Shown piece by piece: positions 1,590-22,520 of a stretch of 24,613 nucleotides of DNA (positions are counted from its first letter, which is position 1; each line of letters begins with the position of its first letter). The position numbers were made by a program, and so were the translations under genes. The notes under the pieces are model-generated. The model was not told the origin of the DNA. It was given only the letters and a program-made list of their open reading frames with translations, and made no database searches. This DNA comes from a virus. The stretch spans positions 1 through 24,613 of the IMG/VR virus record IMGVR_UViG_3300033153_001741. One strand, written 5' to 3'.

Positions 1590-4500
1590 TTATCCGTAAT
1601 TTGGCTCATTACCTGTTACCAAGTCATAAGAATCATCCCTCAATGGCTCACCTCTACTTCTATTTCTCGCTCCATATCTCCTATGATCTACATTTCGACT
1701 TCTTTCATGTCCATAACCCATACCGGGTATTTTTTTACTATAGGGATCTGGTTTTTGGTACTTAACTGGATCAACTGGATCACCATTTTCATCTACGTTA
1801 TCAAATTCTTCTGTATTTACGGTAATTGGTCTTCCGTATATAAAAGAAAGAATAGCAGACTCATCTTTCGGATTAACAGCACCAGCCTCCTTTAATGCAT
1901 TATATCGGGCAACCTTACTTGTTATATTGGCGTTTTCATACGCCTCTATCTTAGAGTCCATAAGTTGATGATACCAACTACCTTTGCCATATTCTTCCTT
2001 GTATCTAGCATCTTCACGTAAATTCTTAGTAGCCTGACCAAGAAGACCAGCCTTCATTTCACGATTTCTAGCAGCCTCATCATAGACATTTTTAGTCCAC
2101 ATCTGCTGAGTCATGCCCTCATCCCTTGCTAAGGCAGAGCCATACTCTCTAAAATGCTGCTCTCTTGCCTGATCATCCATCGCTCCCATTTGTAGATCCT
2201 TGTCATACTTGGATAATGCAGCAGCACCCATAGCACCAATAGCTGCTTGTCCTGATGTAGCATACTGTCCAATCTGACGTACTTGCATGTGATAGGTTCT
2301 TTCAGCTTGTCTTTGGTATAATGTTTTAGCTTCAGCAGACATGCCATAATTCTGACGAGCTTTAAGAACATCCATGTGCCTGTTCCAAGCTTCGCTTTTT
2401 GCTTGTTGTGGCAAAGGTGCAGTGGCAGATTTATATGCTGCATACATACCCGTTAGCTCTAAAGCCTTATCTACACCACCGAGCTTATCAAACACACCCT
2501 TAAGACCTGTTGCCTCGATTTCTTCTTCTTCATCCTTAAATGCAGCAATAAGGTCTTCCTGACTCATATAGTCCGACATGCCACCACTTTTCTCTGTTAA
2601 AGCAGCACTAGCTTCCACTTTCTCTCCATCTGCATCATCAAATCCTTTTGCTTCAATATCTATATTCTTAACTTCTTCTGCTCGTTTTCTAGCTTCTTCT
2701 TTTGTAACGACTGCTACTTCTTTTTCTATAATTTCACCACCCGTTATGATATCCTGATCCTTCAAGTAATTGTTATCACTTACTACAGGTTCATCCGACT
2801 TAAACTTAACCCCAAAATCTATATTGGAAAATTCTCGATTAGCATTAGCCTCAGCATCTTGAAAACGATTATAATGTGTGGCTACACCTGAACGCCCTTC
2901 AGCTTGAGTTTTAATAGATTGAGTCACTTCTTCCTTATAAGCCTCGTAGGAAGCTAGCATATCTTCTTTTGTCCAATCTTTGTTTGTCTTCCTTTGCTTA
3001 TTACCGTATTCTCCAGCAGGTCTGTACTCTTGTCGCCAATATTGACCACCCCTGCCCTCTGTCATTTTTTTTGTCGAATATTCCTTAAATGTCATACCCC
3101 CACTAGCAACTCTTAAGGTCTGTTCTTTTTCAGTTTTATCTGCAACATAAGCATTAATATTTCCTTCGTACTTTTCTATCTGACTCATCATAGTTTCATA
3201 CTCAGCATCACTTATTTCTTCTTTGTCAAGCAACTTTCCAACAGCATCTTTTGCATCAGATATTGAACCTTTAGTCCTTTTGTCAATCTTGTCAGCCCAA
3301 CTTTTTTCTTTCTTTGCTAGCTCTGAAATCTTAGTCCTATACAAACTATTAAGACCACTTGTACCTATAACCTTCCCATTATCATCATACGTGAAGTACT
3401 TCTTAAATTCTGGTTGAATACGAAGCTTAGTAGCATCTATTGATAACTTTTGCCTCGTTTTCCCTTGTAGATCTTTGTGATACCATGAGACATCATCTAT
3501 ATCCTGAGTAGCTTCTTTGACATTATCCATCTGCCTCTTTAGCTTTTTTAATTCTGAAGAAAGCTCTGTTTTGCCACCTTCCTGAACCCAACGTAAATCC
3601 TTGTCTAATTTTTGTAAAGCAGGATCAGAGTATCTGTTTCCAGTTTCCTGATAATCCTTTGTCCTCTCATAAGCCTTAAGATCCTCCCCCTCTAAACGAC
3701 TTGCAGCTTCTGTTTCAATCCCCGTTTTATGGCTTTCCACAGCACTATAATCAGGATTAGGAGCCATGGCTGCTGTACTTTCTTCAATATCTTTTGGTAT
3801 AATATCCATTATAGTCTGTACATAATCTTCTTTTTCCGCATACCCTCCGTATGCTTTTCCATCTATAATCTTATTTTCCCAAATTTGTTGAATATAATCT
3901 GCTGCATTATCAGCTTCCATAGCTTTACTATACCTTCTGTTTGTGTCAATAAATGACTGATAAGCAATAAATGCATCTTTTGGACTTGCGAACTCCATAT
4001 AAGGATCTTTAGATCCTGTTTGCTTATCCTTTACAACTTTTCCTTTAGTAACCTCAATACCCTTATCTCGCATTCTTTGAGCAGCAGCTTCAGTGTACTT
4101 AATGCCGAAATAATTATACTTAGTACCAGCCGTCTTTTTACCCCAACCAGACTCTAATGCCCATTGAGCAGCAACTGCAGCAGGAAATTTAACACCAGCT
4201 TCTACTGCATAATCATACGCTTCATAGTAGTTTGTAGGTGCATCACCTACCTCAGTCTTAATCCCCGGTGCTCCCTTGCCAGAAGTGTTCTTTTCCCAAA
4301 CAGCTAATTGTCCTTTTACTATTGAAGCTATTTCTTTATCGCTTTTAGCATTCTCTAAGGCTTTGGTGTTTTTTACAGAGAAGACACCTTCTCCCCCTTC
4401 TAGTTCAGCAACTTGTTCACCATCGACCATGGCTGCAACACCACCTTGTTCGTGCGAAGGGGCATCATCAGATATTTTCCCTCCGGCAGCTAAGGTGTTA

Positions 4501-6479
4501 GCCAGAGCAGCATCCCATTTACCTTTGTCTAAATGTCCTTGCCCCTTATATGTTTTATCCTCCCCAGAACCACCATGCATATTAGCCAATCCACTTTTTA
4601 TTCCTAATTGTGGTTCACCTAGACCAGATGGTAGTCCTTGTAATGGCATTTTCTGAAGCTTCTTGTCCTTCTGTTTATTTTGGAGCATTCTTATTTCTGG
4701 AGTAGTACCCTCTATGGCATCCGTAATTTCTGGATACGGTATGTGAGCCTCATTGCCCCATTTGTCACCAGCATAATACGACTTCCCTGATTCGTCTTTA
4801 GGCAAACCAGCCCATTCTTTGGATATATTATTGGCAAATTTATTTGTATCTACCTTTAATTTCCCCTTCGCATCTAATGCACCCGTGATATAATCATTAA
4901 ATCCTCGCCTTTCTAATAATGTCGTGCCAAGCAAATCTTGATTTTCTTTGGTTAATGTGAATGTTTTTGGATCTATACCAAGTTTTTTTATCAACTGATC
5001 TTCTGTTCCCGGCTCTCCTTTTTCACCCTTGTTATTGGTAATCTGATATCTTCCTATTGCTATATTTGGGTATTTTTTTCTAGCTTCTGCTATGGTCATA
5101 CCCGTTAAATCAGGATCACCCGTTTTGCTGTGAACTACAGCACTATAACCTCCTGCTGCATCAGATTCTGCTCTAGCTATGGTATTTAATATATTTTTAG
5201 CTGCTGCAGCATATTCATCAGGATCAATATCCTTTTCGCTACCCCCCAAAATCTCTGCATGTTCTTTAGGTGATTTTTCTTTAACCTTACGAACCTTTTT
5301 ATCGCCATCACCCGTTTTTATCCCCTTACGACCATAAGGGATCTTCGTTCCCCTGCGCCCATATACAACATTAGAAGCACCTACATAATTTACTGTTGGT
5401 GCTACATTTTTGCTTGCAGGAGCTTCACCCTCACCCTTACTTTTAAGATATGACTTGACCATCTTTAATCCCTCTGCTGACATCCCTTGAATATTTTTAG
5501 GATCACTCATAAACTGACCAACATATTTGGTGAATGACTGATCTGCTGGCTTGTTAAGAAGACCATGTGTAAATTTACCAGCAATACTATCTTCTCCTTC
5601 AAATACACTCTTTACTACATTTTTAGTGCTTTCTTTCCATCGAGCACCATACTTCTGTATAACTTCAGAGCTTACGTTACTGGCATCAGGAGTAGTAGTA
5701 GTAGGAGCACTCGTAGTAGTAGTAGTAGCAGGATATCCTTGTTCTTTTGCCCACTTCACAACTTCTTCTTTAGTTCCAGAATGTGCATTTTCTGTAGCAA
5801 AATCCTTGAAAGGATCTCCTGTACGAGTGTAGCTCTTTCCTGTTGCAGTTAAAGAATCTGAACTATAAGAAGTAGTAGGAGCATTAGACAATACAGTACC
5901 TGTTCCTGTAGGAGCAGTTCCTGTAGTAGCAGGAGCAGAAGCACCGGGAACAACGCTAGCAGTGGGATTAACAGCAGCAGGAGCAAGACCAGTAGCAGCT
6001 TTAACAGCAGTAGGAGCAAGACTAGCAGTAGTATTAGCAGCAGCAGAAGTTCCCCCAAGAGCACTCGGCATAACACTTGACACCATTGTACTAGCACCAC
6101 TAACAGCAGCACCAGCAGTACCAGTACCACCAGCCAATACGGTTCCAGAGCCAACGGCAGTACTACCAGCAGCCCAACCTCCGGCAGGCATAGCAGTTAC
6201 AGTTCCTATTCCTGCCCCTGCTGTTCCTGCTGCCCCTCCACCAAAAGCAGCACCCAAAGCACCACCGCTAAGTACAGTAGCTGCTACAGCGCCAACTGCC
6301 TTAATTCCTTTTTGGAGATTATCAATGTTCTTATTCTTCTGGTTTTGACCATATTTGTCTTTCCCTGAAAAGAACCTTCCTACACGCAAAAAAGCGTTTC
6401 CTGCAGTATATTTCTTTCCACGGACAGAGAGCCCTGAAGATCCTTCTTGTAGTTGTCTTGTATCACTATATAATGGCAT
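1590..6479 (-). CDS. Giant internal virion/ejection protein with two peptidoglycan hydrolase domains (GH104-like and GH73-like)
   Basis: This 1,629-residue protein follows the muzzle-like gene by 30 nt. Residues ~58-270 are low-complexity Ala/Gly/Thr/Pro. Residues 371-390 hold a tandem YGRRGTKIP/YGRKGIKTG motif. Residues ~425-590 resemble phage lambda R lytic transglycosylase (GH104): a candidate catalytic Glu in ARAESD (E438), GRYQI (476-480), QDLL (514-517), ERRG (523-526) and SKEWAGLP (553-560). Residues ~745-898 resemble FlgJ/GH73 glucosaminidase: AAQWALESGWG with probable catalytic E776, YNYFGIK (788-794) and GGYAEKEDYVQTI (878-890). Between them sits HEQGGVAAMVDGEQ...ELEGGEGVFS (676-701), a Gly/Glu motif I associate with Bacteroidota phage structural proteins. 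The C-terminal ~700 residues look helical and charged. The likely role is a head-packaged ejection protein that cuts peptidoglycan during DNA entry. Domain calls are by eye, and the virion location is inferred. Confidence 0.85.
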   Translation of the reverse strand: MPLYSDTRQLQEGSSGLSVRGKKYTAGNAFLRVGRFFSGKDKYGQNQKNKNIDNLQKGIKAVGAVAATVLSGGALGAAFGGGAAGTAGAGIGTVTAMPAGGWAAGSTAVGSGTVLAGGTGTAGAAVSGASTMVSSVMPSALGGTSAAANTTASLAPTAVKAATGLAPAAVNPTASVVPGASAPATTGTAPTGTGTVLSNAPTTSYSSDSLTATGKSYTRTGDPFKDFATENAHSGTKEEVVKWAKEQGYPATTTTTSAPTTTTPDASNVSSEVIQKYGARWKESTKNVVKSVFEGEDSIAGKFTHGLLNKPADQSFTKYVGQFMSDPKNIQGMSAEGLKMVKSYLKSKGEGEAPASKNVAPTVNYVGASNVVYGRRGTKIPYGRKGIKTGDGDKKVRKVKEKSPKEHAEILGGSEKDIDPDEYAAAAKNILNTIARAESDAAGGYSAVVHSKTGDPDLTGMTIAEARKKYPNIAIGRYQITNNKGEKGEPGTEDQLIKKLGIDPKTFTLTKENQDLLGTTLLERRGFNDYITGALDAKGKLKVDTNKFANNISKEWAGLPKDESGKSYYAGDKWGNEAHIPYPEITDAIEGTTPEIRMLQNKQKDKKLQKMPLQGLPSGLGEPQLGIKSGLANMHGGSGEDKTYKGQGHLDKGKWDAALANTLAAGGKISDDAPSHEQGGVAAMVDGEQVAELEGGEGVFSVKNTKALENAKSDKEIASIVKGQLAVWEKNTSGKGAPGIKTEVGDAPTNYYEAYDYAVEAGVKFPAAVAAQWALESGWGKKTAGTKYNYFGIKYTEAAAQRMRDKGIEVTKGKVVKDKQTGSKDPYMEFASPKDAFIAYQSFIDTNRRYSKAMEADNAADYIQQIWENKIIDGKAYGGYAEKEDYVQTIMDIIPKDIEESTAAMAPNPDYSAVESHKTGIETEAASRLEGEDLKAYERTKDYQETGNRYSDPALQKLDKDLRWVQEGGKTELSSELKKLKRQMDNVKEATQDIDDVSWYHKDLQGKTRQKLSIDATKLRIQPEFKKYFTYDDNGKVIGTSGLNSLYRTKISELAKKEKSWADKIDKRTKGSISDAKDAVGKLLDKEEISDAEYETMMSQIEKYEGNINAYVADKTEKEQTLRVASGGMTFKEYSTKKMTEGRGGQYWRQEYRPAGEYGNKQRKTNKDWTKEDMLASYEAYKEEVTQSIKTQAEGRSGVATHYNRFQDAEANANREFSNIDFGVKFKSDEPVVSDNNYLKDQDIITGGEIIEKEVAVVTKEEARKRAEEVKNIDIEAKGFDDADGEKVEASAALTEKSGGMSDYMSQEDLIAAFKDEEEEIEATGLKGVFDKLGGVDKALELTGMYAAYKSATAPLPQQAKSEAWNRHMDVLKARQNYGMSAEAKTLYQRQAERTYHMQVRQIGQYATSGQAAIGAMGAAALSKYDKDLQMGAMDDQAREQHFREYGSALARDEGMTQQMWTKNVYDEAARNREMKAGLLGQATKNLREDARYKEEYGKGSWYHQLMDSKIEAYENANITSKVARYNALKEAGAVNPKDESAILSFIYGRPITVNTEEFDNVDENGDPVDPVKYQKPDPYSKKIPGMGYGHERSRNVDHRRYGARNRSRGEPLRDDSYDLVTGNEPNYG
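5691..5727. repeat. Trinucleotide repeat encoding poly-Thr in the internal protein
   Basis: Two AGT/GTA-type triplet runs (5691-5703 and 5713-5727 on the plus strand) are separated by a short GAGCACTC-type spacer. On the coding strand they are ACT repeats giving Thr runs around an S-A-P interruption at residues ~252-264. They lie at the end of the Ala/Gly/Thr/Pro-rich linker. Changes by whole triplets would alter linker length without a frameshift. Confidence 0.7.
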
Positions 6480-6509: not shown

Positions 6510-9500
6510 TTATACTCTATTTTGAAACCTTACAGAGCTATCAACACTTGTTAGGCTAAATTTAGTATCATTTATATTTTGAACATGGTATATTGTTTCC
6601 ATGTATTTCCCAACCAATCTTTTTGATTCATTCCTGCCTCTAGTTGGGAAACGATACAACCCACTCCTAAACTTAGCCCTTCGGCTAGGAGCATAACCTC
6701 CCTGTACGTTCACACTCTCTGCTGATACGTTAACTAACTGAGTTTGTTCTTCGGTTAGATATCTGGCTGTACTGAGGATCTGAACACCATCCTTGTTAAC
6801 ACTCAAATAATTTGAATCAAACTTCTTAACCGAAGCTCCGAACTTATTTACTACAAACAAAAGAGCAGAAAAATAGTAAGTGCTGTAATAGTTGCCTCTC
6901 TCTCCTATGTTATGCTGCCAGATATATGTTTGGGTAGCAGCAAAATTATCAACACTGTACAGGTGCTTCCCTTTATGGAAATAAAGAATTGGGTAAAATG
7001 TGTATTCACTTACAAATGAAGCTATGTTTTCATTATAGCTAAAGGTTAAAGAGCGTTTGCTACCATCTGGATCATTAGCACCCGAATATGTAGTTTCTAA
7101 GTTACCACCCTTTGAAATTGTTGGAATACCAAAAAGAGCAGTAACTTCAACAGGATCACCATCCAACAAATTGCTCCCATTAAAATAACCACCATCATTT
7201 ATTTCTATAGATGAACTTCCGAGCCCTGTTATTGTGAATGTTTGTGTTGCAGTATTTCCAATATCCCTATCGAAAAAACTCCATGTTACAGTATCACCTA
7301 CAGTAAGGGCAGATAGGTCTTCAGCCCCCATGTCCACCGAAGTATAATAAGTCAATACATCTAGTTCATAGCGAAATATCCCAGATTTTGTTTGTGTCTC
7401 ATTAATGAACACAGCCCACTCCTGCTCAGGATTACCTAAAGTTCTCCTGATGGTAAACAAGACATCATTATTCTCATAATCAATAGTAGATGTTATACCA
7501 CCATCGCCAGCTATTTGCTCTAGTTCTTCTACCTGTTCTAGATATGGTGCTATAAAACTATGTATTCCCTTGGAGTCTGAAATAACATCTGTGCCATCCT
7601 GACCAAACTTGATGATCTTACGCATGCGAGCATCAGCCCAATAGATATTGTGATCTGTATATGCGATAGAATCTCTATGCTGTGTTCCATAGGTCTTAGA
7701 TACATAGTCAATACCCTCCATTATGCCAGCTTCTCCTAGTGTTATACTTCCCAAATCTGACGGCAATACAGCCCTGTCCTTTATCCTAAGCCTTCCAAAC
7801 CCCGACTCCTGAAAAGAATACATATAATTAAACAACAAACCATTACCATTGATTTCACCATATTCTGCATTAAGGTCGAAATTGGAGATTTCCTCAAACT
7901 GACGGAACCTATCTATCACCTCTCCATAGGGTTTCTTTTCATTACTCCAATGCCATCTGGTAGGATGATCATAGCTTTTAATAAAGTCTGAAGGCTTACT
8001 GACAAAGGGCATAACCTTATCCCGATAAGTAACAACACTATGTAATTCCCATTTTTCATGAAAAAGATCAGCATCACAGTTACCAGTAGGATCATGTTGA
8101 AACTGGTAAAGACTACCACTTGTATTCCAATCATTTGCATGTCTGCTCCCGTGATGCGCCCACATGGGAGTACCATTAGCATCGCCCGTAGAACGCCTTA
8201 ATGTTAAATTATACTTACTTTCTAAAGGAAAACAAATACCCGATGCATAATCTGGATGATCCTTGTATTGATTGTTATTTGGTTGTTGATCTGGAGCACA
8301 CCCATCGCCATCATTTACTATTCTTGGGTATAGTCGTAGATAGCCAAAATATTGCATGTAGCAATCCCCACCCCATATCTCTATATTGTCAAATTGCCTT
8401 TGACTACCATTGGATATGTCATTTAGCTCCTTTGTTGTAACGGGCTGAAAATGATTAGTTGTATGATAGATGTTGGCTTCTAGTCCTTCTAATGTAGCTC
8501 CACCATATTGTCCTGAAGCATTCTCTACACGATAATTAAATAAATTAGCACCAAAATGTTTGTTAGCTATTGCTTGTCCAGCCCATGTATGATACCCCGG
8601 AGCAGAACCATTTGTTTTAATAACGACACCCTTGGGATGATGAAAGCATCTTAAAAATTCTTTTTTTTTGCCAGTACCATCTGCATTCCAATCATCATGG
8701 TCGGGAGTAAACTTAGAATCATCTGATAATCCCCTCAAACTAAGTCCGAGTCCAATACCCCCATCTGGTTCAAAATCCTTACCATTAGCAAATCCTCCTT
8801 GAGAACCAGTAGTCATAGAAAATGTTCCAACTGCTTCTATTCCATGAGTTATACGATACTTATGATATAGTGTTTGTGTACCCAAAGTTGGATTCGTCTG
8901 ATTCAACCATGAGTTAGGGATAGAGTCAGGGAAAAAATATTGACTCATAGAGTCACTAAATTTTTGAATCCACGCATGCCTAAATGGCTTAAACAAATTT
9001 CCATAAACAGGATTAGTCGGTCTTTCAAAGCCATGCTCTAAAGATGCCACAAAGTTCATAGTACCAGCCCCATCAGGGCTAGGAGCGACTCCCCTAAGCA
9101 TGTAGTCAGGAGAATCAAAAGTATATACGTGTGGCTCTGCATGCATAGCTACATCATCCCTAACCCCCTGCCATCCTTGCCAATCTGTTTTGCCTTCCTT
9201 AAAGATGCTATTCTTCGGTGGATCTTGAGAGTTTGTAGGATTTACTCCATTGTTTTCATTAATTACTATCCCTGCATCATCAACCCAATAATTAGCTATA
9301 CCATGAAAAGGGCGTATTATAGGCTCTCCTTCTCCATGACATGCCTGAAACATTAAGCCTTGTTGCTTGACCATTTCATCATCCCCTTCTCTTGGCACTC
9401 TTACTATTGAAAAACCACCTATAAACTTATGCAACGGCTCATTTCCCAACTCAGGTACAGGAGTGTTCATTTCAATACCACTAAAACTTAACCCTACAAT

Positions 9501-11264
9501 TCTAAGTGCTGATTGCGCCACATTTTCGGGTTCACGGTTAGCGACATACTCATCATCACTAAATAACTTGCCAAGATAGCTTACATCCTCTTTTTGATAT
9601 ACCAATTCAGTATTTTTTGTAGCCACTGAAGACAAAACACCAGTTATCTTATCAAGATCAAGAGCAACATTACCTATTTGATTTGATCCTGTTAAAGCTG
9701 TATAATGATCAGGGCTTTCTTCAAAAGCTGGTATCGTGTGTATAGTGCCATTATTTCTAACTCTGCGTGCCGTCATTCTAGATCGAGGTTCGCCCAGCAA
9801 ACCTGTTGAAGGATCGCTTCCTGTTGTATTTGTATAATCTGTTGCATTTTGAGGCGGTATCTCTACATCGGCAAGATGCTTGGTAAATAAGGGATTGCCC
9901 TTCTTGTCAAAAAATGTAATGCCAAACCTGTATTGCTCATCCCTAAAATAGCCAACTCTATCATGCGCCATATATGCGCCCTTATAGCTGGTATAATCAT
10001 AAAGAGCACCCCCCTTATTTGTCTCAGATACAATCTTTTTACCTTCTAAAGGAAGACCACTAGGATAACTATATGCATTTTTGACATACGACACAAGTCT
10101 ACTCGAATCATAATACACAGGATAACCATCTTCACCAGCATCAGTTCCTGTCCAAGCTGGTTGTTGATCTTCATTATAACACCTAATCTCTGGCTTTACA
10201 GTTAATAATGCCAAGGTATCATCTGGTATGTCAAACCCGGCAACACCCGACTCTGTATTGCCCACCCATAGCCTGTTGTCTTTTACCTGTATCGTTTTTG
10301 CCCTAAAAATAAATTCCTTCCTGTCTGTTATTTCAGTAAGCTCTATAGGTATCCCCTCTATGGTGGTATGCTTAAAGTACATATCTGCACCCGTTTTGTC
10401 CACATTGCCTACAAAGAATATCGTGGCTTCTTTTGCACCCGAACTAACAATAGAATAAACAGCAGCTACCTCTATAGTGTCATACCCGGTATCCAAATCA
10501 CTAAGCCTAAGCATGTTTGCCTTGGAACCCGAGCTATCTGCATTGTCAAAATCATATAAATGATACTCTGAAGGAGTATATTTATCTGGTATATTAGCAG
10601 ATACTATTACTGGTGTCGATATAGGATACCAAGGCGTTTTATAGCCATCTACCGTAACCATTCGATAGGTGTATTGGTATGCTCCTGTCTTAAGACTTCC
10701 CTGAACTTGCTGTACAAAATTAAAATAGCCCATTTCCCAATTAGGAGAAAGGTTTATGCCATTTACACTAGGAGTAACACCCTCGTATGTGTTTGCTCCA
10801 GTTTTTTTGAACGTATAAGATCTGGGCTCACTTAAATCATCAACCCAATAGACTCTGTATAAGTCCTTACTCTCGTAGAACGTCACTACCTGTGGTAGGT
10901 TAAGCTCAGAAAACCCCAAGACGTTTCCATCAGGATCATCTGTAGAATCCCTGAATAGCTTCTGATATACTGAAGAACCATCTGGCTGACAGATCAGTAT
11001 GCCTATTTCACTATAACTTAGAGCATCTGACTTAGAGAGTACTACTATTACCTCATTTAAGTCTCTTGCCCCAACAACAAAGCTATTTGAATCCCAACCA
11101 GAAACGGTATTTAGCGTACCCTTGGCATTCTCCCAAGACATCGTGCCATCTACATTAAAGATAAGCCTGCCGTTAATGGAACGTGTATATGTATTAGCTG
11201 CCCTTGCTGTTTTGGTAATATCTCTATTCCAACCACCCTCGAAGCTGTTGGTAATACGCTCCAT
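6510..11264 (-). CDS. Muzzle/tail stabilisation-type protein (P22 gp10-like role) of a crAss-like short tail
   Basis: This 1,584-residue, mostly beta-rich protein has no membrane segment. The N-terminus holds RSINGRLIFNVDGTMSWEN (28-46), typical of the stabilisation/muzzle proteins of crAss-like and related Bacteroidota podoviruses. Further recognisable stretches are TGAYQYTYRMVTVDGYKTPW (193-212) and YFRDEQYRFGITFFDKKG (439-456). In this family the protein closes the distal end of the short tail and retains DNA and cargo before ejection. The start ATG overlaps the upstream stop by 1 nt (TAATG), which fixes the start and suggests coupled translation with the ring-like protein. The next gene is the large hydrolase-bearing internal protein, the order remembered for phage crAss001 (ring protein, muzzle, cargo). 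Family assignment is strong; detailed function is by analogy. Confidence 0.85.
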   Translation of the reverse strand: MERITNSFEGGWNRDITKTARAANTYTRSINGRLIFNVDGTMSWENAKGTLNTVSGWDSNSFVVGARDLNEVIVVLSKSDALSYSEIGILICQPDGSSVYQKLFRDSTDDPDGNVLGFSELNLPQVVTFYESKDLYRVYWVDDLSEPRSYTFKKTGANTYEGVTPSVNGINLSPNWEMGYFNFVQQVQGSLKTGAYQYTYRMVTVDGYKTPWYPISTPVIVSANIPDKYTPSEYHLYDFDNADSSGSKANMLRLSDLDTGYDTIEVAAVYSIVSSGAKEATIFFVGNVDKTGADMYFKHTTIEGIPIELTEITDRKEFIFRAKTIQVKDNRLWVGNTESGVAGFDIPDDTLALLTVKPEIRCYNEDQQPAWTGTDAGEDGYPVYYDSSRLVSYVKNAYSYPSGLPLEGKKIVSETNKGGALYDYTSYKGAYMAHDRVGYFRDEQYRFGITFFDKKGNPLFTKHLADVEIPPQNATDYTNTTGSDPSTGLLGEPRSRMTARRVRNNGTIHTIPAFEESPDHYTALTGSNQIGNVALDLDKITGVLSSVATKNTELVYQKEDVSYLGKLFSDDEYVANREPENVAQSALRIVGLSFSGIEMNTPVPELGNEPLHKFIGGFSIVRVPREGDDEMVKQQGLMFQACHGEGEPIIRPFHGIANYWVDDAGIVINENNGVNPTNSQDPPKNSIFKEGKTDWQGWQGVRDDVAMHAEPHVYTFDSPDYMLRGVAPSPDGAGTMNFVASLEHGFERPTNPVYGNLFKPFRHAWIQKFSDSMSQYFFPDSIPNSWLNQTNPTLGTQTLYHKYRITHGIEAVGTFSMTTGSQGGFANGKDFEPDGGIGLGLSLRGLSDDSKFTPDHDDWNADGTGKKKEFLRCFHHPKGVVIKTNGSAPGYHTWAGQAIANKHFGANLFNYRVENASGQYGGATLEGLEANIYHTTNHFQPVTTKELNDISNGSQRQFDNIEIWGGDCYMQYFGYLRLYPRIVNDGDGCAPDQQPNNNQYKDHPDYASGICFPLESKYNLTLRRSTGDANGTPMWAHHGSRHANDWNTSGSLYQFQHDPTGNCDADLFHEKWELHSVVTYRDKVMPFVSKPSDFIKSYDHPTRWHWSNEKKPYGEVIDRFRQFEEISNFDLNAEYGEINGNGLLFNYMYSFQESGFGRLRIKDRAVLPSDLGSITLGEAGIMEGIDYVSKTYGTQHRDSIAYTDHNIYWADARMRKIIKFGQDGTDVISDSKGIHSFIAPYLEQVEELEQIAGDGGITSTIDYENNDVLFTIRRTLGNPEQEWAVFINETQTKSGIFRYELDVLTYYTSVDMGAEDLSALTVGDTVTWSFFDRDIGNTATQTFTITGLGSSSIEINDGGYFNGSNLLDGDPVEVTALFGIPTISKGGNLETTYSGANDPDGSKRSLTFSYNENIASFVSEYTFYPILYFHKGKHLYSVDNFAATQTYIWQHNIGERGNYYSTYYFSALLFVVNKFGASVKKFDSNYLSVNKDGVQILSTARYLTEEQTQLVNVSAESVNVQGGYAPSRRAKFRSGLYRFPTRGRNESKRLVGKYMETIYHVQNINDTKFSLTSVDSSVRFQNRV

Positions 11265-11956
11265 TAGAAAAAGTTTTTAGAAGCTAGCGGTAGTAGCTGA
11301 TGATACAATGAAGCGATATATTCAAGTTGTTTGGGATCTGGCATTTCATCATCCCCCCTAGCCTGACCACACAGCCAATACCACCTACGCTCCAAGCTCG
11401 CATAGACATGATGTGGCACTGTGCCTTCCACATACGGTGCGGTCTTGTATTTCCACATAATATAAGCGGTAACAGCCTTTTCATGACCATCCTTGATAAG
11501 GGGAAACCCTTTATCGTCTAAATCAAATGCCATGTATGCCAATCCTGCTGTTGTTTCCTGCTGGATACCCGATACATGAATCCAACCTCCCTCCATAGCC
11601 ATCTTAGAGGTTCTTGTCTCTGAACCGTTAATGCGGAGTCCTGAACCCGATGAATTAGTAGCCAAATTGGGTGAGTCCTTGTAGAATAACCTGAAATCAC
11701 GAAATGTAATCTCTGGATAAGTACCTCCAACTTTAAGAGAGACAAACTGGTAGAGGTCAGCCGGGAGCCTGATCCTATTGTTCTCTATCTTGAGTTCACA
11801 TTCTTTTCTTACAAAGGTATCATACGATCCTATGGCTGTTTCAGCCTCATAAGCCCATTCAATCATATAATCTATGACATCGTTAACACTAGAGAGTTGA
11901 AGATCCCTTACGACATTGGCTATGATTGTCTCTACCTTTATTCTACCTTGTGGCAT
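11264..11956 (-). CDS. Tail ring/adaptor-type protein directly upstream of the muzzle
   Basis: This 230-residue soluble protein starts with a helical segment (VETIIANVVRDLQLSSVNDVIDYMIEWAYEAETAIG). A beta-rich region with RLPADLYQFVSLKVGG follows, then a helical end that includes YIMWKYKTAPYVEG. A helical N-terminus plus an LPADL-type strand is common in head-tail adaptor and tubular proteins of podoviruses. Its immediate upstream position to the muzzle-like gene is where the proximal ring protein lies in crAss-like phages. Its stop shares 1 nt with the muzzle start, and its own start lies 14 nt inside the upstream Cys-rich small gene. It is probably one of the stacked rings joining portal and muzzle. 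The exact ring identity cannot be set without comparison. Confidence 0.75.
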   Translation of the reverse strand: MPQGRIKVETIIANVVRDLQLSSVNDVIDYMIEWAYEAETAIGSYDTFVRKECELKIENNRIRLPADLYQFVSLKVGGTYPEITFRDFRLFYKDSPNLATNSSGSGLRINGSETRTSKMAMEGGWIHVSGIQQETTAGLAYMAFDLDDKGFPLIKDGHEKAVTAYIMWKYKTAPYVEGTVPHHVYASLERRWYWLCGQARGDDEMPDPKQLEYIASLYHQLLPLASKNFF

Positions 11957-12116: not shown

Positions 12117-12559
12117 AGTTCTGGATAATCCGATCCATCTACAACATTCTTATATATAAACCTTCTCCATTTAATAGCAGCCTTAAACCTGTACATATTA
12201 AACCATCTGGGGTATTTCCATGCTATAAAAAAGAAGTACCCATCATCTTTCATGATATTTACGCTCACCTTCTTTAGCACCTTTTTGCCATTTTCTTTAT
12301 GAAAATGATTCTTGTAAGGGTTAAACTTGGTGCATAATATTTTTGTTCCAAACAAAGTACCCATCCTGCTGTATAGATCTACTGGCTGGTTCTTATAGAT
12401 AACTCTCTCCAGTACTACATCTAGGTAAGTCCTTACTATCCTAGAGAAGCGTTCATACTTAATCCTCTCGCCTGTTTTCTCAGCCAGCTTTTGCTTAACT
12501 ATAGTCCAGATACCATAAAGGCTATAGTACAGGTTTTTATCTTGCTCTTGTCTGCTCAA
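12107..12559 (-). CDS. Conserved basic 150-aa protein of the ring-protein cluster, TTG start
   Basis: This Lys/Arg/Tyr/Trp-rich protein contains RIKYERFSRIVRTYLDVVLE, the central IYKNQPVDLYSRMGTLFG, and an aromatic, basic end (YFFFIAWKYPRWFNMYRFK). The start is TTG at 12559, which lies 23 nt inside the upstream 237-aa gene. A TAA closes the frame a few codons further up and no ATG or GTG lies between, so TTG with coupled translation is the best choice. The stop is TGA, overlapping the Cys-rich gene by 10 nt. In crAss001, as I remember it, two small genes lie between two ring proteins, the same arrangement as here. I recognise the type as conserved in Bacteroidota phages but know no function. 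The basic, aromatic surface could suit contact with DNA or with a tail partner. Confidence 0.8.
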   Translation of the reverse strand: MSRQEQDKNLYYSLYGIWTIVKQKLAEKTGERIKYERFSRIVRTYLDVVLERVIYKNQPVDLYSRMGTLFGTKILCTKFNPYKNHFHKENGKKVLKKVSVNIMKDDGYFFFIAWKYPRWFNMYRFKAAIKWRRFIYKNVVDGSDYPELCP

Positions 12560-13250
12560 CTTGTGTTTCTCTACTATCGTTTATCTCATCATTGGGACTC
12601 CTGATAAGCATGTTCAGTTCTATGGATAAAATTCTTTGGACTATGTCAGATACGTAATATTCCGGCATCGGATACTGGTCTTCGTCAGTAATGCATGAGA
12701 CAACCCCATCAGCACCTGTCACTTCAACATCCAAAGGCTTATCAAATATGCCCCTGACGTTTATATAACAAATATCCTCGTTAAAAGGATCGGTAACGTA
12801 TAGGTAGCCACCAATAAAGTATGCCCTACGCATATTACCTGTAAAGCGAAGATTTTTACGTATCCCCACTATATTAGAAGGCGTGAGAATAATAGGTGTT
12901 TGCTTGTCAGCCAATCCTACCCACACCAATCCCTTATTATTGGGGAGATCAACTAACTTAGGTATTGCTACACGCTTTACAGTGCAATTCCAATCTATTA
13001 CATTAGAATCAGCTTTATCAACTTCTTCAAGAGTTAACAATCCTAAATCCTGAACAAGTTGAGGATCTATTGTTGTTGACTCAGCCTTATGCCGACTTAC
13101 TGCCTGCTGTGAATATTCATATATGAGCTTAGCACGATAGTACTCTATCCAGAATTTAATCTGCCTGAGATTAAGCCTATCATCATCAGAAGACAAACCA
13201 CCCCTTGCTATGTTCAGTACGTTGTAAGAAAGTTCATTGAGAGTCGCCAT
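12537..13250 (-). CDS. Tail ring/connector-type protein (crAss-like ring protein candidate)
   Basis: This 237-residue soluble protein has an N-terminus (MATLNELSYNVLNIARGGLS, then SDDDRLNLRQIKFWIEYYRA) of the RGG-xS-DD-xx-L-xx-RQI-x-x-WI type that I associate with structural proteins between MCP and muzzle in crAss-like phages. A beta-rich middle (WVGLADKQTPIILTPSNIVG) follows, then a helical end (YVSDIVQRILSIELNMLI). A terminator-like hairpin lies just upstream, so this is the first gene of the ring-muzzle-cargo transcript if that hairpin acts. It ends TAA inside the following TTG-started gene. The likely role is one of the rings stacked below the portal. It lacks enzymatic motifs. Confidence 0.75.
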   Translation of the reverse strand: MATLNELSYNVLNIARGGLSSDDDRLNLRQIKFWIEYYRAKLIYEYSQQAVSRHKAESTTIDPQLVQDLGLLTLEEVDKADSNVIDWNCTVKRVAIPKLVDLPNNKGLVWVGLADKQTPIILTPSNIVGIRKNLRFTGNMRRAYFIGGYLYVTDPFNEDICYINVRGIFDKPLDVEVTGADGVVSCITDEDQYPMPEYYVSDIVQRILSIELNMLIRSPNDEINDSRETQVEQTRAR

Positions 13251-13322: not shown

Positions 13323-14138
13323 TTAAGATACGGTTCCGATACCCTTATCGTGAAGCCTCTGGAGTCCTGCGACTTCAGTACCAGCATAAGCTGTAGGATT
13401 AGCTAAATCCACATAATTAGCTGATAAGATATCTGCAAGAGTAGTTCCTCCTGATGGAGAAGCACCACCTGTAGTATCATACGTACCAATGTTGGCAACA
13501 AGAGTATATACCCTGCTAATAGCCTTAGTAAGCTCTATGGTCTTCTTGTTAGTTCCAGATGGAACATCTACATAATGCTCAATCTCGAATACATCATACG
13601 TATTAGCAGCACCATAACCCGACAAACCATCAGCAGTCAAATCAGCAGAAGTGCCAACTGCTTCTACATGAGCAGCAGAAGATGCAACTGTTAATCCTGC
13701 AGAAACAACTATGGTAAAAGGATCTCCTGAACCTAAAGTTATTTGAACATCATTTGTAGCAGCAACCGCAGTAAACACTCCATGAGTATTTATAGAAGCT
13801 TCGAACTTAAGAGCTAGTGAAGGAAGCGTATCACCAGTAGCTACATAAACAGTGAACGAATGTCTGGTCAGTTGCCGACTGTCAGGATAAACGACTGTAA
13901 TGATCAATTTATCACCTACCGTAGTAGAAGCCATCGTTACATCATCCCTTTGGTCAGTTCCAGCAGCATACGAGCTAAAAGAAGCAGAAACAATATCCGA
14001 ATACTTAAGTACAAAGTCCGGACTTACTACGCCCCCAGAGCCATCATCACCCTGAATTGTTAATTTGCCACCAGCTACTGCTGGCGAATTTGCAGTTGCA
14101 TCATAAAATGAAGCAAACCTTGCTTTTGTGTTTTTCAT
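13323..14138 (-). CDS. Probable capsid decoration/auxiliary head protein
   Basis: This 271-residue protein is rich in Ala, Thr, Gly, Ser and Val with few charges and no predicted membrane span. It looks beta-rich throughout (for example KLIITVVYPDSRQLTRHSFT and DVQITLGSGDPFTIVVSAGL). It ends in a short segment, VAGLQRLHDKGIGTVS. Composition and size suit a virion surface protein: an auxiliary capsid protein or head-fibre base. Its place between the MCP region and the ring proteins fits a highly expressed structural gene with its own terminator, which follows directly. The 34-nt A/T-rich leader ends in AATAAAAATG. No enzymatic motif is visible. A minor tail protein is an alternative. Confidence 0.6.
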   Translation of the reverse strand: MKNTKARFASFYDATANSPAVAGGKLTIQGDDGSGGVVSPDFVLKYSDIVSASFSSYAAGTDQRDDVTMASTTVGDKLIITVVYPDSRQLTRHSFTVYVATGDTLPSLALKFEASINTHGVFTAVAATNDVQITLGSGDPFTIVVSAGLTVASSAAHVEAVGTSADLTADGLSGYGAANTYDVFEIEHYVDVPSGTNKKTIELTKAISRVYTLVANIGTYDTTGGASPSGGTTLADILSANYVDLANPTAYAGTEVAGLQRLHDKGIGTVS

Positions 14139-15762: not shown

Positions 15763-17142
15763 TTACGCCCTAAGCAGTTGACCACATGCCAATGGGTTTC
15801 TGACAATAATTCCAGACTCGGAAAGGACTTCACAAACGAAGCCATCCTTGGAATTAGATGCCACCATTGATTTCTGATCAAATGGGTTAACCATACCGGG
15901 AATATACTTAACGATCATCCCACGATCAACACCACCTGCTCCTTTGACTTTAACCTCGATATTGGCAATACCGTTGGTTACTCCCATGTCCATGAAAACC
16001 ATACGGAATGATTCTTTTGGATAACCTGTTCCCGGATCAATGTCCGTGTGCAAGTTGGGATCGTCAAATAATGGATTGTGAACCAAAGTGATCCTATGAC
16101 CTAACGCATTGTAAGTCGTGTAGTGTACACCTAGTTCAAGGTTTCTTCCAGCATCCATATCATAGATAAGTGAATTGCCTTGGAAAACCAACTCCCTCAT
16201 AGCCTTGTGAAAAGCTACTTTACCGCCAGTTCCAGTAAATACCATCCAGTTATTGTTCTTCTTGCCAGAGTTCAGGCTAAGATTAGCAATAAAATCTACG
16301 ATGATATCCTCTGTAAGATCAACTGTGTAGGTATCCGTATTAGCAGAATCAATCTGCTGAAGCACCCCGTCACCTGTTACCAAGGGGTTTCCATCTACAT
16401 CTGTGACCAAAGAAGAACCGTTAGCATCCATAGTGGATTTTCCATACCACCGGGCTAATTCCATCTGATAAAGATATTCTTCCATTACCAGATTTTGGTC
16501 TGTAAAGAACCATAGTCGCTGACCATTGTTCTCGATCCAAGTAATATCAGTAAGAGCCGATCCTGAAATGGACTTGGACTTACGATTGATACCTAGATAG
16601 TTTACATACCAATCTGGATACACATGGTTTTCGTATCCTCGATCAGAGTTTTCCGGAAATGCTGATCCGATTGTATTGGTCGTAGCACCAACGGCAAAGT
16701 TGGTAGCAGAATCAAAAACTGCAGCAACATCATTTGTCTGTAGCTTTACGGTGAACTCATAGTTGCTTCCCACAGGGGTAGCATCTGAGACTATAATAGC
16801 CTGAGTTCCATCCTTAAACCGGATAACATCATTAGGATTCAAATAATTTTCAAACACCTCAATGGTGAATGATGCTCCAGCAGCCCCTAGCGTAGCACCT
16901 GTCTGTGTGCCTGTAGAAGTTGATGGGCGATTCAAGCGACCTAAAATAGACCACTTAAAGGCATTATCTCCAATTAGCTGCTCCTTCGCAAACCTACCCG
17001 TACCCTCTAGAAAATATGTCAAAGAGTACTGTGGAAACTGACGAATTAAAGCTTTGGAAATTTCTGGATATTTTAGAAGATTAACTACCAAAGAGTTATT
17101 CTCTACGGTATCCTTACCGTACGATCCTGAGTGAAATTTCAT
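15763..17142 (-). CDS. Major capsid protein (HK97-fold, crAss-like type)
   Basis: This 459-residue protein follows the scaffold by 27 nt. The N-terminus (MKFHSGSYGKDTVENNSLVV) leads into LLKYPEISKALIRQFPQYSL and TYFLEGTGRFAKEQLIGDNA, the N-arm pattern of crAss-like MCPs. The middle carries an inserted beta-rich stretch (ENYLNPNDVIRFKDGTQAII). Next comes DWYVNYLGINRKSKSISGSA with an acidic helix ending in ARWYGKSTMD, typical of the spine/P-domain helix region. The end, SKDGFVCEVLSESGIIVRNP, suits the final beta strands. HK97-fold MCPs build the icosahedral shell around scaffold. The A/T-rich leader ends in AATTAAAATG without a Shine-Dalgarno. Identification rests on size, motif pattern and the classic portal-scaffold-MCP order. 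Confidence 0.88.
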   Translation of the reverse strand: MKFHSGSYGKDTVENNSLVVNLLKYPEISKALIRQFPQYSLTYFLEGTGRFAKEQLIGDNAFKWSILGRLNRPSTSTGTQTGATLGAAGASFTIEVFENYLNPNDVIRFKDGTQAIIVSDATPVGSNYEFTVKLQTNDVAAVFDSATNFAVGATTNTIGSAFPENSDRGYENHVYPDWYVNYLGINRKSKSISGSALTDITWIENNGQRLWFFTDQNLVMEEYLYQMELARWYGKSTMDANGSSLVTDVDGNPLVTGDGVLQQIDSANTDTYTVDLTEDIIVDFIANLSLNSGKKNNNWMVFTGTGGKVAFHKAMRELVFQGNSLIYDMDAGRNLELGVHYTTYNALGHRITLVHNPLFDDPNLHTDIDPGTGYPKESFRMVFMDMGVTNGIANIEVKVKGAGGVDRGMIVKYIPGMVNPFDQKSMVASNSKDGFVCEVLSESGIIVRNPLACGQLLRA

Positions 17143-18309: not shown

Positions 18310-20664
18310 TTATCTCTTATCTTCTTTAGATCCAAGCTTTTCTTCAGCCTGATCAATAGCTTTGGAAGACAGGCTTTCTTCTTCTAGCTGTTCTTCTTCG
18401 CTTACAGGTTCAGGAATCTGCTTTTCTGCAGCACTTAAATCTGCCGTTTGTGCATTTTTACCCATTTCATTAGTAGTGTTAAGCATGCTCATGCCTTTAT
18501 CATGCTGCTGCCTGAAGTCCTGAGTCTCCTGACCTCCATCAATCTTAAGTTGCGTAACCTCCAAGGCAGACTCCTTGTTAATTTCAGCAACCCTGATCTT
18601 AGTCTCATTAGCAGCTTGTTCCTTCTGAGCTTCCATCTGTGTCTGTGCCTGTTGAGCTTCTTGCTGCGCCTGTTGAGCTTGCTGCTGTGCCTGTTGTTGA
18701 GCCTCCTGTTGCTTACGGACTTCTTCTAAGCCACTTTCCAAAATCTTCTCAGCCTCTTTAGCGGTATCAGCATTCATGACCTTTATGATGCTTAGCCAAT
18801 CTGTAGCACCAGCAGAGAGGGCTTCCCTGCCCCACTGTAGCATTTTCTCTTTGTCGCCAGCCTCTTTGGTAGAGTGCTCTATGTGAATTGCCACCTCATC
18901 ATTCCACATTGACTTAGACACCTCAAAAAGCTTAGCGCCATGATCACCCATAAATGCCCTGATCTTCTTGCCCTCAAACCAGCAGAACTTCATCACATCA
19001 GCAGCATATTGTAATGCCATGCCTATAGTGCGTTGATGATTTGCCATAAGCGTTTGGGTGATAAGGGTGGATTGAACCACGTTCCTCTCGTTGACACCTA
19101 CTGTATCTGAATTTCCCGTAAGACCTTCCCTTGCAGGAGATATGCCGGAAATAATAACAGTAGTCTGTTCCAGCATAACCTTTAGATTGATAAGCTGCTG
19201 TACTGAATTGGAAAGGGTAAAGTCTATTTGCTGGAACTGGTTAAAGCCACTAGAGATCTGATTTCCCTCCTGCTTGGAATTTATGGGGATTATCCCAGAG
19301 TTCTTTGCATGGTAAAACACATCCTCTAAAGCAAGGTCATTAGGCTTTTGGGATGTATCATATACAACAGCCTTTCCCCCGGCACGTGCCATAGTGAGTT
19401 CTATATGGAACATAACAATGTTATAAAGCAACTGTATGTTCTTTAACGAGTCGACCAGCGAAAGGGTTATACCATCTATGTTATTTTTTATAATTCCCAC
19501 ATAAGGCAAAGGAGCATAAGAGTAATTTTCCTCCTTACGTGGCTGGTTGGGGCTTCTCCTTGCATTTACCAAAATGTCGTGACCTATCATGGTAGTTGTC
19601 CAGATATCGGTAATGGTCTTTGTCTGTACATTATCACCCTTTTTCTTTTTGTAATCATCCTTCATAACCTTTTTGAAAGGAACATCAGGATCATACTTGT
19701 TTGGTGACATCTTAAAATTCATTCTTCTTAAAGACTTCCATACGGCTGTTACTACACGAATACGCATAGGAGTAACAGAGTCGTCTTTGTAATACCACTG
19801 GTAGGGCTTGTTATATCGCTGGAGGGAGTCCTGCCCCTCATAGCGCATCTTCTCCACCTTCCTCACCTCATCTTCTGTAAGGTAATCTCCATATTCATCT
19901 ATGATCTCGTTAACCTGTAAAAACCTTTCCTCTGCCACCCATGAAGAATCCTGCAGCGTTTCAGACTCTGAGTTGATGTCATATATCAACGCCCTTGGAT
20001 CAACCCTTCGTATGTAGGGATCGTTATTTTTAATGCCTACAGCATAAAATTCCTTTGCCGTAATAGCCTGATCATACAACCCCTGCTTAAAGGTGTGCTT
20101 AAGCTGGTACTTTTTTATAAGCTCCAAAAGACCATAATGGGTGATTTCCTCAATGGCTTCCCTCATATTCATCTTCTCCCACTTAGCTGCTTCAGGAGGA
20201 AGCTGGAAGTCCACTTCTTCTTCCTCAAAGCTGATACCCATTTCTGCCTCTATCTGCTTTCTTACAGGAGCTATTATTTCCTCAGTAACCCTAGACACCA
20301 ACTGGTCTATCTTCCTTACCACTGCATCTTCGTTAACAGCCTCTACGGTGAAGTTCATGGGATTTATCATAAACTCTCCCACCAAGACCTCTATCTTAGG
20401 AGTGATCATCGGATAGTTTACCAAACGTGCAGGAGAAGATATGCCGTATGTATTGGTCACATATTCAAACGTCTTGGTATCAAACACCCCATTGAAGATA
20501 AGGTAGTTCTCATAATCCTTTTTCCTTTCACGATTAAACTTGGTAGTATAGTTCTGATAAGCTAAAATAGCCTCCACATTTCTTTTACACCATTCCTTGT
20601 CTTTTTTCCCTTCGGGTATATTCTGCTTAGGGAAAACTCCCTGAGAGGTAGCGTTATTAGCCAT
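18310..20664 (-). CDS. Portal protein (crAss-like type)
   Basis: This 784-residue protein lies directly after TerL, overlapping by 1 nt (TAATG). The N-terminal region has LVNYPMITPKIEVLVGEFMI followed by NPMNFTVEAVNEDAVVRKID (residues 81-120). The clip/stem region includes LVDSLKNIQLLYNIVMFHIE (403-422) and ARAGGKAVVYD (426-436). The motif SGISPAREGLTGNSDTVGV (506-524) matches the loop pattern seen in portals of Bacteroidota phages. Residues 647-687 are an almost pure Gln/Ala/Glu coiled-coil segment, and the last 95 residues are charged and helical. Portals form the dodecameric DNA gate at one capsid vertex. The length fits the large portals of crAss-like phages. Confidence 0.88.
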   Translation of the reverse strand: MANNATSQGVFPKQNIPEGKKDKEWCKRNVEAILAYQNYTTKFNRERKKDYENYLIFNGVFDTKTFEYVTNTYGISSPARLVNYPMITPKIEVLVGEFMINPMNFTVEAVNEDAVVRKIDQLVSRVTEEIIAPVRKQIEAEMGISFEEEEVDFQLPPEAAKWEKMNMREAIEEITHYGLLELIKKYQLKHTFKQGLYDQAITAKEFYAVGIKNNDPYIRRVDPRALIYDINSESETLQDSSWVAEERFLQVNEIIDEYGDYLTEDEVRKVEKMRYEGQDSLQRYNKPYQWYYKDDSVTPMRIRVVTAVWKSLRRMNFKMSPNKYDPDVPFKKVMKDDYKKKKGDNVQTKTITDIWTTTMIGHDILVNARRSPNQPRKEENYSYAPLPYVGIIKNNIDGITLSLVDSLKNIQLLYNIVMFHIELTMARAGGKAVVYDTSQKPNDLALEDVFYHAKNSGIIPINSKQEGNQISSGFNQFQQIDFTLSNSVQQLINLKVMLEQTTVIISGISPAREGLTGNSDTVGVNERNVVQSTLITQTLMANHQRTIGMALQYAADVMKFCWFEGKKIRAFMGDHGAKLFEVSKSMWNDEVAIHIEHSTKEAGDKEKMLQWGREALSAGATDWLSIIKVMNADTAKEAEKILESGLEEVRKQQEAQQQAQQQAQQAQQEAQQAQTQMEAQKEQAANETKIRVAEINKESALEVTQLKIDGGQETQDFRQQHDKGMSMLNTTNEMGKNAQTADLSAAEKQIPEPVSEEEQLEEESLSSKAIDQAEEKLGSKEDKR

Positions 20665-22520
20665 TATATTCTTCGTTTAAGTAAATTAAGAGGATCATTG
20701 CTCTTTGAGCCATACTTCTCATAATTTGTACTGTTTACAACTTGTAGTATGCCATCTATGGTCTTATATGTCGGCAAAAAATAATTATTCTTACTTTCCA
20801 GATCCTTTCGGTTCATAACCCGTATGTTGGAGTTATCAGTGTCATGCAAAAGGACAATGCCAAAGGTCATAGCCATGTCAGTATTCTTAATGCCAAAATT
20901 AGCTAAGTCCTGCAGCAACTCCAAAAAATAGATATTCTCCACATGCTTTTTGATATAATCATCAAGCAAGTCAACTATAAGGTTTTTCTGGTATGACTTC
21001 ATGTGTACACCATAGCGGTTGGCAACCTTACCCCAAGGGGCATCGGCAGCACGTGGTCTTTCCTTTAGTAGCTTGGAATGATTGTTATTGATGTAGTAGT
21101 TAAAGAACCCTTCGTCTGTGTACTCTGTAAGAGTCTTAGCTCCGTAATAGGTAAATAGCTTAACGGTATTCTCATACCACTGATCTTTGGTATATGGGCG
21201 ATCTACATACATGGCTATAGGCAAATACGAAGGCTCATCCTCATTCATTGTCCACCTTCTAAACACCATAGCACAGCCCTTAGACTCTGAGTTAGGAGCT
21301 TCCTCTTGGGTGTAGGAGTCAACAGCACCTATGTCTAAATTGAGCATATCTTTTTTAGGATGGTATAATATTCTCATCTTACCCTCTGGGTTAAGCACCC
21401 ACTCCACCTCTGTCTTTGTCCTGTTCCAAACCAGATCCCCGGTGCTTATCATGCCCTGCAAGGACTTGTTAGCCAAAATCTTGCCTATCTGCTCGTTGAG
21501 CTTGTCAAGGTCAAAAGGACTTCTGTTGGACTGTACAAAGGCATCTTCTGGAACAAGGGGATGTTCTTGTATGTGCAGATAATAAGCAGTCTTGTCCTTG
21601 GAGTCATGCAGCTTTTTGCGGATACCCCGGTAGTGCTCAGTGCCTCCCTCAACATCACTAATGCCTGTCTTGCGGTTGAAAAAGCCAAACAGCACCTTTG
21701 AGGCAGGAATAAAAAACTGCTCTAAGTTGTACTTCTCAGGGTTATACCACATTTCCAAATAGTCGTCAGACTTATTCATTATGTTCGCTGTACCCCCAAC
21801 AATAGGGATTCCAAACTGTATAGCACCATCCTTAAAGCATGCCTCGGTAGCCATATACGCCCGTAAGCCATGTTTCATTTCTCCAAATTCCTCGAAGATA
21901 GCCATGGAAAAACGCTCTCCCCTAAAGACCTCCGGATTGTCCATGCACCTAAAATGCATAATGGACTTAATGCCTTTCTCCAGCCACACACCGTTTTCCT
22001 TGATACGGTATCCAGACTTCATCATAAGCTCGTTATCTGCCAGATCCTTTCTATGACGTATCTGTGGAGGAAGCTTGTTCCATGAATTGACAACTTTGTT
22101 CCTGAAAGATGCTACATAAGCAGGGGTGGCAGCACCAACGCCAATCTCATTGTTAGGAAAGAATGTCCACTCATACAAAGCCAAGCCAGCGTTCATAAAT
22201 GAAAACCCCTTATCCCTAGCCTTTAGGACAATTAAGCCCCTGCCCTCTTTCTTACAGGTATAGACTCTCTCAAAGTATTCATGATCCAGATCCCTATACC
22301 ATGGAGACTGTATCCTCTTTCTGTTGGTCTTCTCATCCCTAGCAAGTATCTGAAAGAAGTTTAAGTAGAAGTAGTATGCTCCCGGTATCTTTACACCACC
22401 AGAAGGCTTGTAGCCGTTTTTGCACCTGTCAATCTGTAAGCTCCAATAGCGATTGTAGTCCTTAGAGCCGGGAGCTAACTGAGGAATCCCCTCCTTGACA
22501 ACAGGTGAGTACTTAAGCAT
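20664..22520 (-). CDS. terL: Terminase large subunit (ATPase-nuclease)
   Basis: This 618-residue DNA-packaging motor protein has an ATPase domain with Walker-A-like LKARDKGFS (99-107; the usual GKT is replaced, as in many terminases). A Walker-B-like MAIFEEFGE follows (206-214) with E210/E211. The C-terminal RNase H-like nuclease shows LNLDIGAVDSYTQ (393-405; candidate metal-binding D396 and D401), LTEYTDEG (464-471) and NTDMAMTFGIVLLHDTDN (546-563; D548 and D560 as candidates). It would translocate DNA through the portal encoded next, with which it overlaps by 1 nt. The gene starts 3 nt after the upstream 89-aa gene. The divergent Walker A is typical of crAss-like TerL. Catalytic residue assignment is by eye. 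Confidence 0.92.
   Translation of the reverse strand: MLKYSPVVKEGIPQLAPGSKDYNRYWSLQIDRCKNGYKPSGGVKIPGAYYFYLNFFQILARDEKTNRKRIQSPWYRDLDHEYFERVYTCKKEGRGLIVLKARDKGFSFMNAGLALYEWTFFPNNEIGVGAATPAYVASFRNKVVNSWNKLPPQIRHRKDLADNELMMKSGYRIKENGVWLEKGIKSIMHFRCMDNPEVFRGERFSMAIFEEFGEMKHGLRAYMATEACFKDGAIQFGIPIVGGTANIMNKSDDYLEMWYNPEKYNLEQFFIPASKVLFGFFNRKTGISDVEGGTEHYRGIRKKLHDSKDKTAYYLHIQEHPLVPEDAFVQSNRSPFDLDKLNEQIGKILANKSLQGMISTGDLVWNRTKTEVEWVLNPEGKMRILYHPKKDMLNLDIGAVDSYTQEEAPNSESKGCAMVFRRWTMNEDEPSYLPIAMYVDRPYTKDQWYENTVKLFTYYGAKTLTEYTDEGFFNYYINNNHSKLLKERPRAADAPWGKVANRYGVHMKSYQKNLIVDLLDDYIKKHVENIYFLELLQDLANFGIKNTDMAMTFGIVLLHDTDNSNIRVMNRKDLESKNNYFLPTYKTIDGILQVVNSTNYEKYGSKSNDPLNLLKRRI

Follow-up and report, generated by a model that had tools for sequence, protein, structure and literature searches.

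A single 1,629-aa protein of a crass-like phage belongs, by sequence tests, both to the GH104 family of lambda-R-like lytic transglycosylases and to the GH73 family of FlgJ-like N-acetylglucosaminidases. Between them, the two families attack both kinds of glycosidic bond that alternate along the glycan strand. The gene lies in the window analyzed here, a stretch of 24,613 nucleotides that corresponds to positions 1 to 24,613 of the IMG/VR record IMGVR_UViG_3300033153_001741. We consider it likely that this ORF codes for the cargo (ejection) protein of the C1 position and that its GH104 and GH73 domains together open the periplasmic glycan mesh at entry. An earlier note on this DNA had placed two different peptidoglycan hydrolases in one chain at positions 3786–5207; both domains were recovered in an uninterrupted ORF, and these coordinates correctly correspond to residues 425–898.

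The ORF call and the translation of the window gave a single unbroken reading frame for this protein (Table 1). It directly follows a gene encoding a protein of 1,584 aa, from which it is separated by 30 bases; this neighbor, earlier called muzzle-like, matched the crassvirus muzzle family PF25731. Together with the matches to PF24228, PF25702 and PF23898, this identifies a Crassvirales structural module, and a match to ring protein 3/4 was slightly below the family cut-off. The gene order TerL-portal-MCP-rings-muzzle-C1-C2 agrees with that of PhicrAss001, as the suggestion of a crAss-like order had implied. In PhicrAss001 the muzzle gene (gp44) is followed by C1 (gp45) and then by C2 (gp46); therefore the 1,629-aa ORF occupies the C1 position and the ORF at the window's edge the C2 position. 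The Pfam scan did not detect PF25712 in the latter.

Table 1. Features of the window that bear on the C1-position protein and its genomic context.
Feature	Position	Strand	Evidence and remarks
C2-position cargo protein, truncated by contig end	1..1584	-	homologues at equivalent position in L012/L013
C1-position cargo/ejection protein gene	1590..6479	-	1,629 aa, ~177 kDa, no cysteine; ORF, translation, mass
C-terminal domain, residues 1285-1503	1971..2627	-	common to muzzle-adjacent proteins of relatives; E 1e-61 to 8e-57, alignment
GH73 / FlgJ-like N-acetylglucosaminidase domain, residues 759-895	3795..4205	-	PF01832; FlgJ profile and fold
E776, predicted catalytic Glu of GH73	4152..4154	-	invariant in GH73 alignment
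Conserved motif region GGKI..APSHEQGGV...AELEGGEGVFSVKNTK, residues ~655-720	4320..4517	-	precedes hydrolase slot in relatives
GH104 / lambda-R-like lytic transglycosylase domain, residues 426-594	4698..5204	-	tblastn, profile, alignment, AlphaFold model
E438, predicted catalytic Glu of GH104	5166..5168	-	aligns with lambda R E19
N-terminal Gly/Ala-rich hydrophobic stretch, residues ~55-130	6090..6317	-	peak at 61-79
Crassvirus muzzle protein	6510..11264	-	PF25731, E=8.8e-83
Crassvirus tail ring protein 1	11264..11956	-	PF24228, 4.2e-26
Crassvirus tail ring protein 2	12537..13250	-	PF25702, 3.4e-31
Crassvirus major capsid protein	15763..17142	-	PF23898, 7.4e-51
Portal protein	18310..20664	-	PF16510, 5.6e-15; phrog_6547, 1.5e-93
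Large terminase	20664..22520	-	phrog_6681, 1.7e-72

The best studied counterpart, gp45 of PhicrAss001, is likewise encoded directly after the muzzle and is a virion cargo protein of the capsid and tail, with a predicted TM helix near its N end; N-to-C ejection with formation of a channel was proposed for it (PMC10172136). Like gp45, the 1,629-aa protein is a large chain encoded between muzzle and C2 whose N-terminal portion includes a hydrophobic Gly-rich segment, and the hydropathy of this segment is similar in strength (1.71 vs 1.73 in gp45). Unlike it, gp45 is 842 aa long, has no hydrolase domain that we could find and contains PF25725, the portal-bound domain crAss_CARG1. Since the Pfam scan did not detect PF25725 in the 1,629-aa protein, we name it a C1-position protein and do not file it as C1. 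Compared with the C1 Pfam domain, its conserved motif gave a weak profile match by hhalign (E=0.007, probability 5%) and nothing by hmmsearch, a suggestive resemblance to the start of the portal-bound domain, and the C-terminal domain showed no homology to gp45. We infer the virion location and the ejection of the protein, both put forward in the earlier note, from synteny with PhicrAss001. The cargo/ejection role is well supported by this synteny, by homologues at the same position and by the lysozyme domain in a Pfam-proven C1 protein of another phage (see below); the further suggestion of the earlier note, a use against thick or modified Bacteroidota peptidoglycan, is speculative, and the virion-internal location is presumed from gene position.

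The GH73 domain was recognized directly: PF01832 matched residues 759–895 with E=5.2e-15 and 56.6 bits (cut-off 30.2 bits). A profile of eight GH73 domains matched FlgJ structures (E=8e-25), and the top fold matches of the AlphaFold model were GH73 structures, FlgJ among them (E=2e-5). The predicted catalytic E776 was invariant in all eight aligned domains.

The assignment to GH104 was reached by building a 10-sequence profile after the family and PDB sequence searches had given nothing: residues 426–594 matched no family in Pfam or NCBIfam and no PDB sequence by direct phmmer. Tblastn with this region retrieved T4-like cyanophage proteins, a baseplate lysozyme and, from other phages, lysozyme-like proteins (best match 8e-13), and the profile matched lambda lysozyme (3d3d/1am7) with E=1.7e-4. 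In the alignment to lambda R the SEG, GRYQ and WAxLP cores are retained, and E438 was invariant across 43 diverse GH104 ORFs. Among viral structure models, the AlphaFold model of the domain (pLDDT 91) matched baseplate lysozymes and a transglycosylase of the SAR endolysin type, down to 4e-10; a fold search of the PDB gave nothing significant, the best match being MltE, itself a lytic transglycosylase (E=0.52). Of the Pfam, profile and structural checks that the earlier note had proposed for residues 400–900, those on GH73 gave matches throughout, and those on GH104 gave matches by the profile and among viral models, no Pfam family and no significant PDB fold. Its statement that the key motifs are intact in both domains was borne out. 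Given the profile and fold matches and the conserved glutamates, both domains are genuine, each retaining its key acid. It should be mentioned that PDB entry 11mn_A ("66 kDa protein") matched the GH104 profile better than lambda lysozyme did (5.5e-7).

Related contigs of uncultured crass-like phages were fetched using the muzzle protein as query. L012/L013, L015 and L018 encode muzzle-adjacent proteins that have the C-terminal domain of the 1,629-aa protein; the contigs L014, L016 and L011 end before this domain is reached. The motif APSHxxGGV...EVEGGExVFSV is common to L011–L016, and what follows it varies. In L012/L013, L014 and L015 a GH104 domain stands after the motif, and in the C1-position protein of L016 (6532–9051) this place is taken by a C-terminal muralytic domain like that of T6SS VgrG3 (PF21277, 3e-21). 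In L018 (14536–18699) two adjacent genes share the C1-position protein between them: the first corresponds to the N-terminal hydrophobic part, and the second starts with a lysozyme-like domain and contains the C-terminal domain as well. By hhalign this lysozyme-like domain is related to GH104 (E=3e-5, probability 73%). Outside this group, the Pfam-proven C1 protein of bajarodcaudo virus 1 carries a phage tail lysozyme domain (PF25725 and PF18013), and no hydrolase domain was found in the C1 proteins of PhicrAss001 or DAC15. Judged from these sequences, one exchangeable hydrolase in the C1-position protein is therefore common in this group of relatives and not universal. A search of the relatives' contigs for the endolysin families PF01510, PF13539 and PF05838 revealed a single M15 peptidase, which belongs to the distant record L024; PF05838 matched no control either, so its absence is uninformative. 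When the profile of the C-terminal domain was run against GTDB contigs in search of a hint to the host, no relatives were found. The contigs L010, L011, L014 and L016 all stop within the C1-position gene, close to the hydrolase slot; strain variation there may be the reason.

In the 1,629-aa protein the domains are ordered GH104–motif–GH73, so that GH73 occupies the slot holding the single hydrolase of the relatives. The nearest relative by muzzle (54% identical) that reaches the motif, L011, aligns with the N-terminal part up to VYGRRGTKIP (residue ~381) and then passes straight to the motif; the ~290 residues in between, including GH104, are absent from it. DNA repeats around this insertion were limited to weak two-copy matches. 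In the tree the GH104 domain falls into one clade with those of L012, L014 and L015 (support 0.98). On this evidence it is the lineage's own enzyme, relocated, and GH73 is probably a newcomer; GH73 was not found in the contigs of seven relatives, all of them fragments.

Such an arrangement could also mean that just one of the domains is used in entry, the other being a remnant, or a module for glycan binding, that a recent swap at the slot left behind. The displaced GH104, which carries two short inserts compared with the GH104 of relatives, and the presence of GH73 in the relatives' GH104 slot, as expected shortly after a replacement, would fit this. However, the catalytic glutamate and the surrounding core motifs are retained in both domains and the ORF contains no frameshift or stop, and we regard this explanation as unlikely. 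An origin of the fusion by chimeric assembly of two phages is very improbable. The fusion does rest on one contig, no second one covering the GH104–GH73 stretch, and the separate contig L010, 99.95% identical, ends at window position 5385, just short of that stretch; but the frame is single and open, there is no break in composition (GC 0.33–0.45 across the hydrolase part), and the N-terminal part (by L011), GH104 (by the tree) and the C-terminal part each match C1-position proteins of crass-like phages.

Among the best 80 loci of each survey, 77 ORFs contained GH104 only, 81 contained GH73 only, and none of these contained both; a Pfam scan of the 43 GH104 ORFs revealed GH73 solely in the window ORF. 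Since the surveys covered the best 80 loci each, they support calling the pairing rare, and "unique" would go beyond them. We found no paper on hydrolases of crassvirus cargo proteins or on a GH104–GH73 virion protein, which is weak evidence of novelty given the incomplete coverage of subscription papers and preprints.

Wall enzymes, one or two per protein, are already known from virions; what appears to be new here is the pairing of two glycosidases and the swappable slot. The same two catalytic families are represented by lambda R (GH104) and FlgJ (GH73); unlike the window protein, lambda R is a stand-alone endolysin and FlgJ a bacterial flagellar protein. The "tail lysozyme" of bajarodcaudo virus 1 (XHH63386.1), from a crass-like phage, resembles the window protein in its muzzle-adjacent C1 position and its muralytic domain, which stands just before the C1 domain, and differs from it in having one such domain, Phage_lysozyme2 (PF18013), which is neither GH104 nor GH73. 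HydH5 of the Staphylococcus phage phiIPLA88 is virion-associated and has two wall-degrading domains, one of them LYZ2/glucosaminidase (PMC3150257). It thus shares with the window protein two wall-degrading domains in one chain, one a glucosaminidase, but the partner in HydH5 is CHAP (amidase/peptidase) rather than a second glycosidase, and its host is Gram-positive. T7 gp16, from a different phage group, is similar by description: an internal virion lytic transglycosylase that is part of the extensible tail and has one enzyme activity listed (PMC5380687).

By likeness to gp45 and T7 gp16, the most likely role of the 1,629-aa protein is to reach the periplasm early and to open the wall there. 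Before infection it would reside in the head and tail; at infection the chain would pass out through the muzzle with the N-terminus leading, and GH104 would get to the periplasm ahead of GH73. There GH104 would cut MurNAc-GlcNAc bonds by transglycosylation and GH73 GlcNAc-MurNAc bonds, the two jointly making a small opening in the glycan mesh for the ejected channel and the DNA. The order of ejection, the enzyme activities and the cooperation of the two domains are all presumed. The protein is probably an unusual version of a familiar entry tool, injected ahead of the DNA.

A function as lysis endolysin, or in both lysis and entry, seems quite improbable. Both families do include endolysins (lambda R; phrog_3513 "endolysin") and none other was seen among the window genes scanned, but the window covers a genome only in part, and an endolysin of its own may be encoded elsewhere in that genome. 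Moreover, the gene sits between those for muzzle and C2, and its product is a multidomain chain of 177 kDa that has its C-terminal domain in common with muzzle-adjacent proteins. A weak LysM match at 13323–14138 was followed up as a candidate endolysin and gave no sign of one.

Returning to the reading of the protein as an entry device, it is quite possible, and we put it forward tentatively, that a branch of crass-like phages has a C1-position cargo protein with a dedicated slot in which unrelated wall-degrading domains are swapped, and that this phage carries a previously undescribed dual-glycosidase ejection device. The PhicrAss001 structure paper (PMC10172136) is silent on any step of peptidoglycan degradation: the words peptidoglycan, lysozyme, hydrolase and endolysin never occur in its main text. 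If muzzle-adjacent cargo proteins have a swappable muralytic slot, it would be a concrete, testable candidate for the way crassviruses cross the wall, with the two-enzyme version as its natural extreme case. The slot is also a place where the structural modules of crass-like phages vary, and it might track host wall chemistry.

Two further observations were made in other phages. GH104-like domains are widespread near the baseplate hub genes of T4-like cyanophages (L003, L004, L045 and others), where several are annotated as hypothetical. In Cellulophaga phage phi14:2, the C1-domain protein g070 (PF25725; L027:15672–17453), annotated as detected in virions, had no sequence match in the PDB; after its C1 motif it contains two HExxH metallopeptidase-like motifs (HEFTH and HEFIH), and perhaps it too is a two-enzyme cargo protein.
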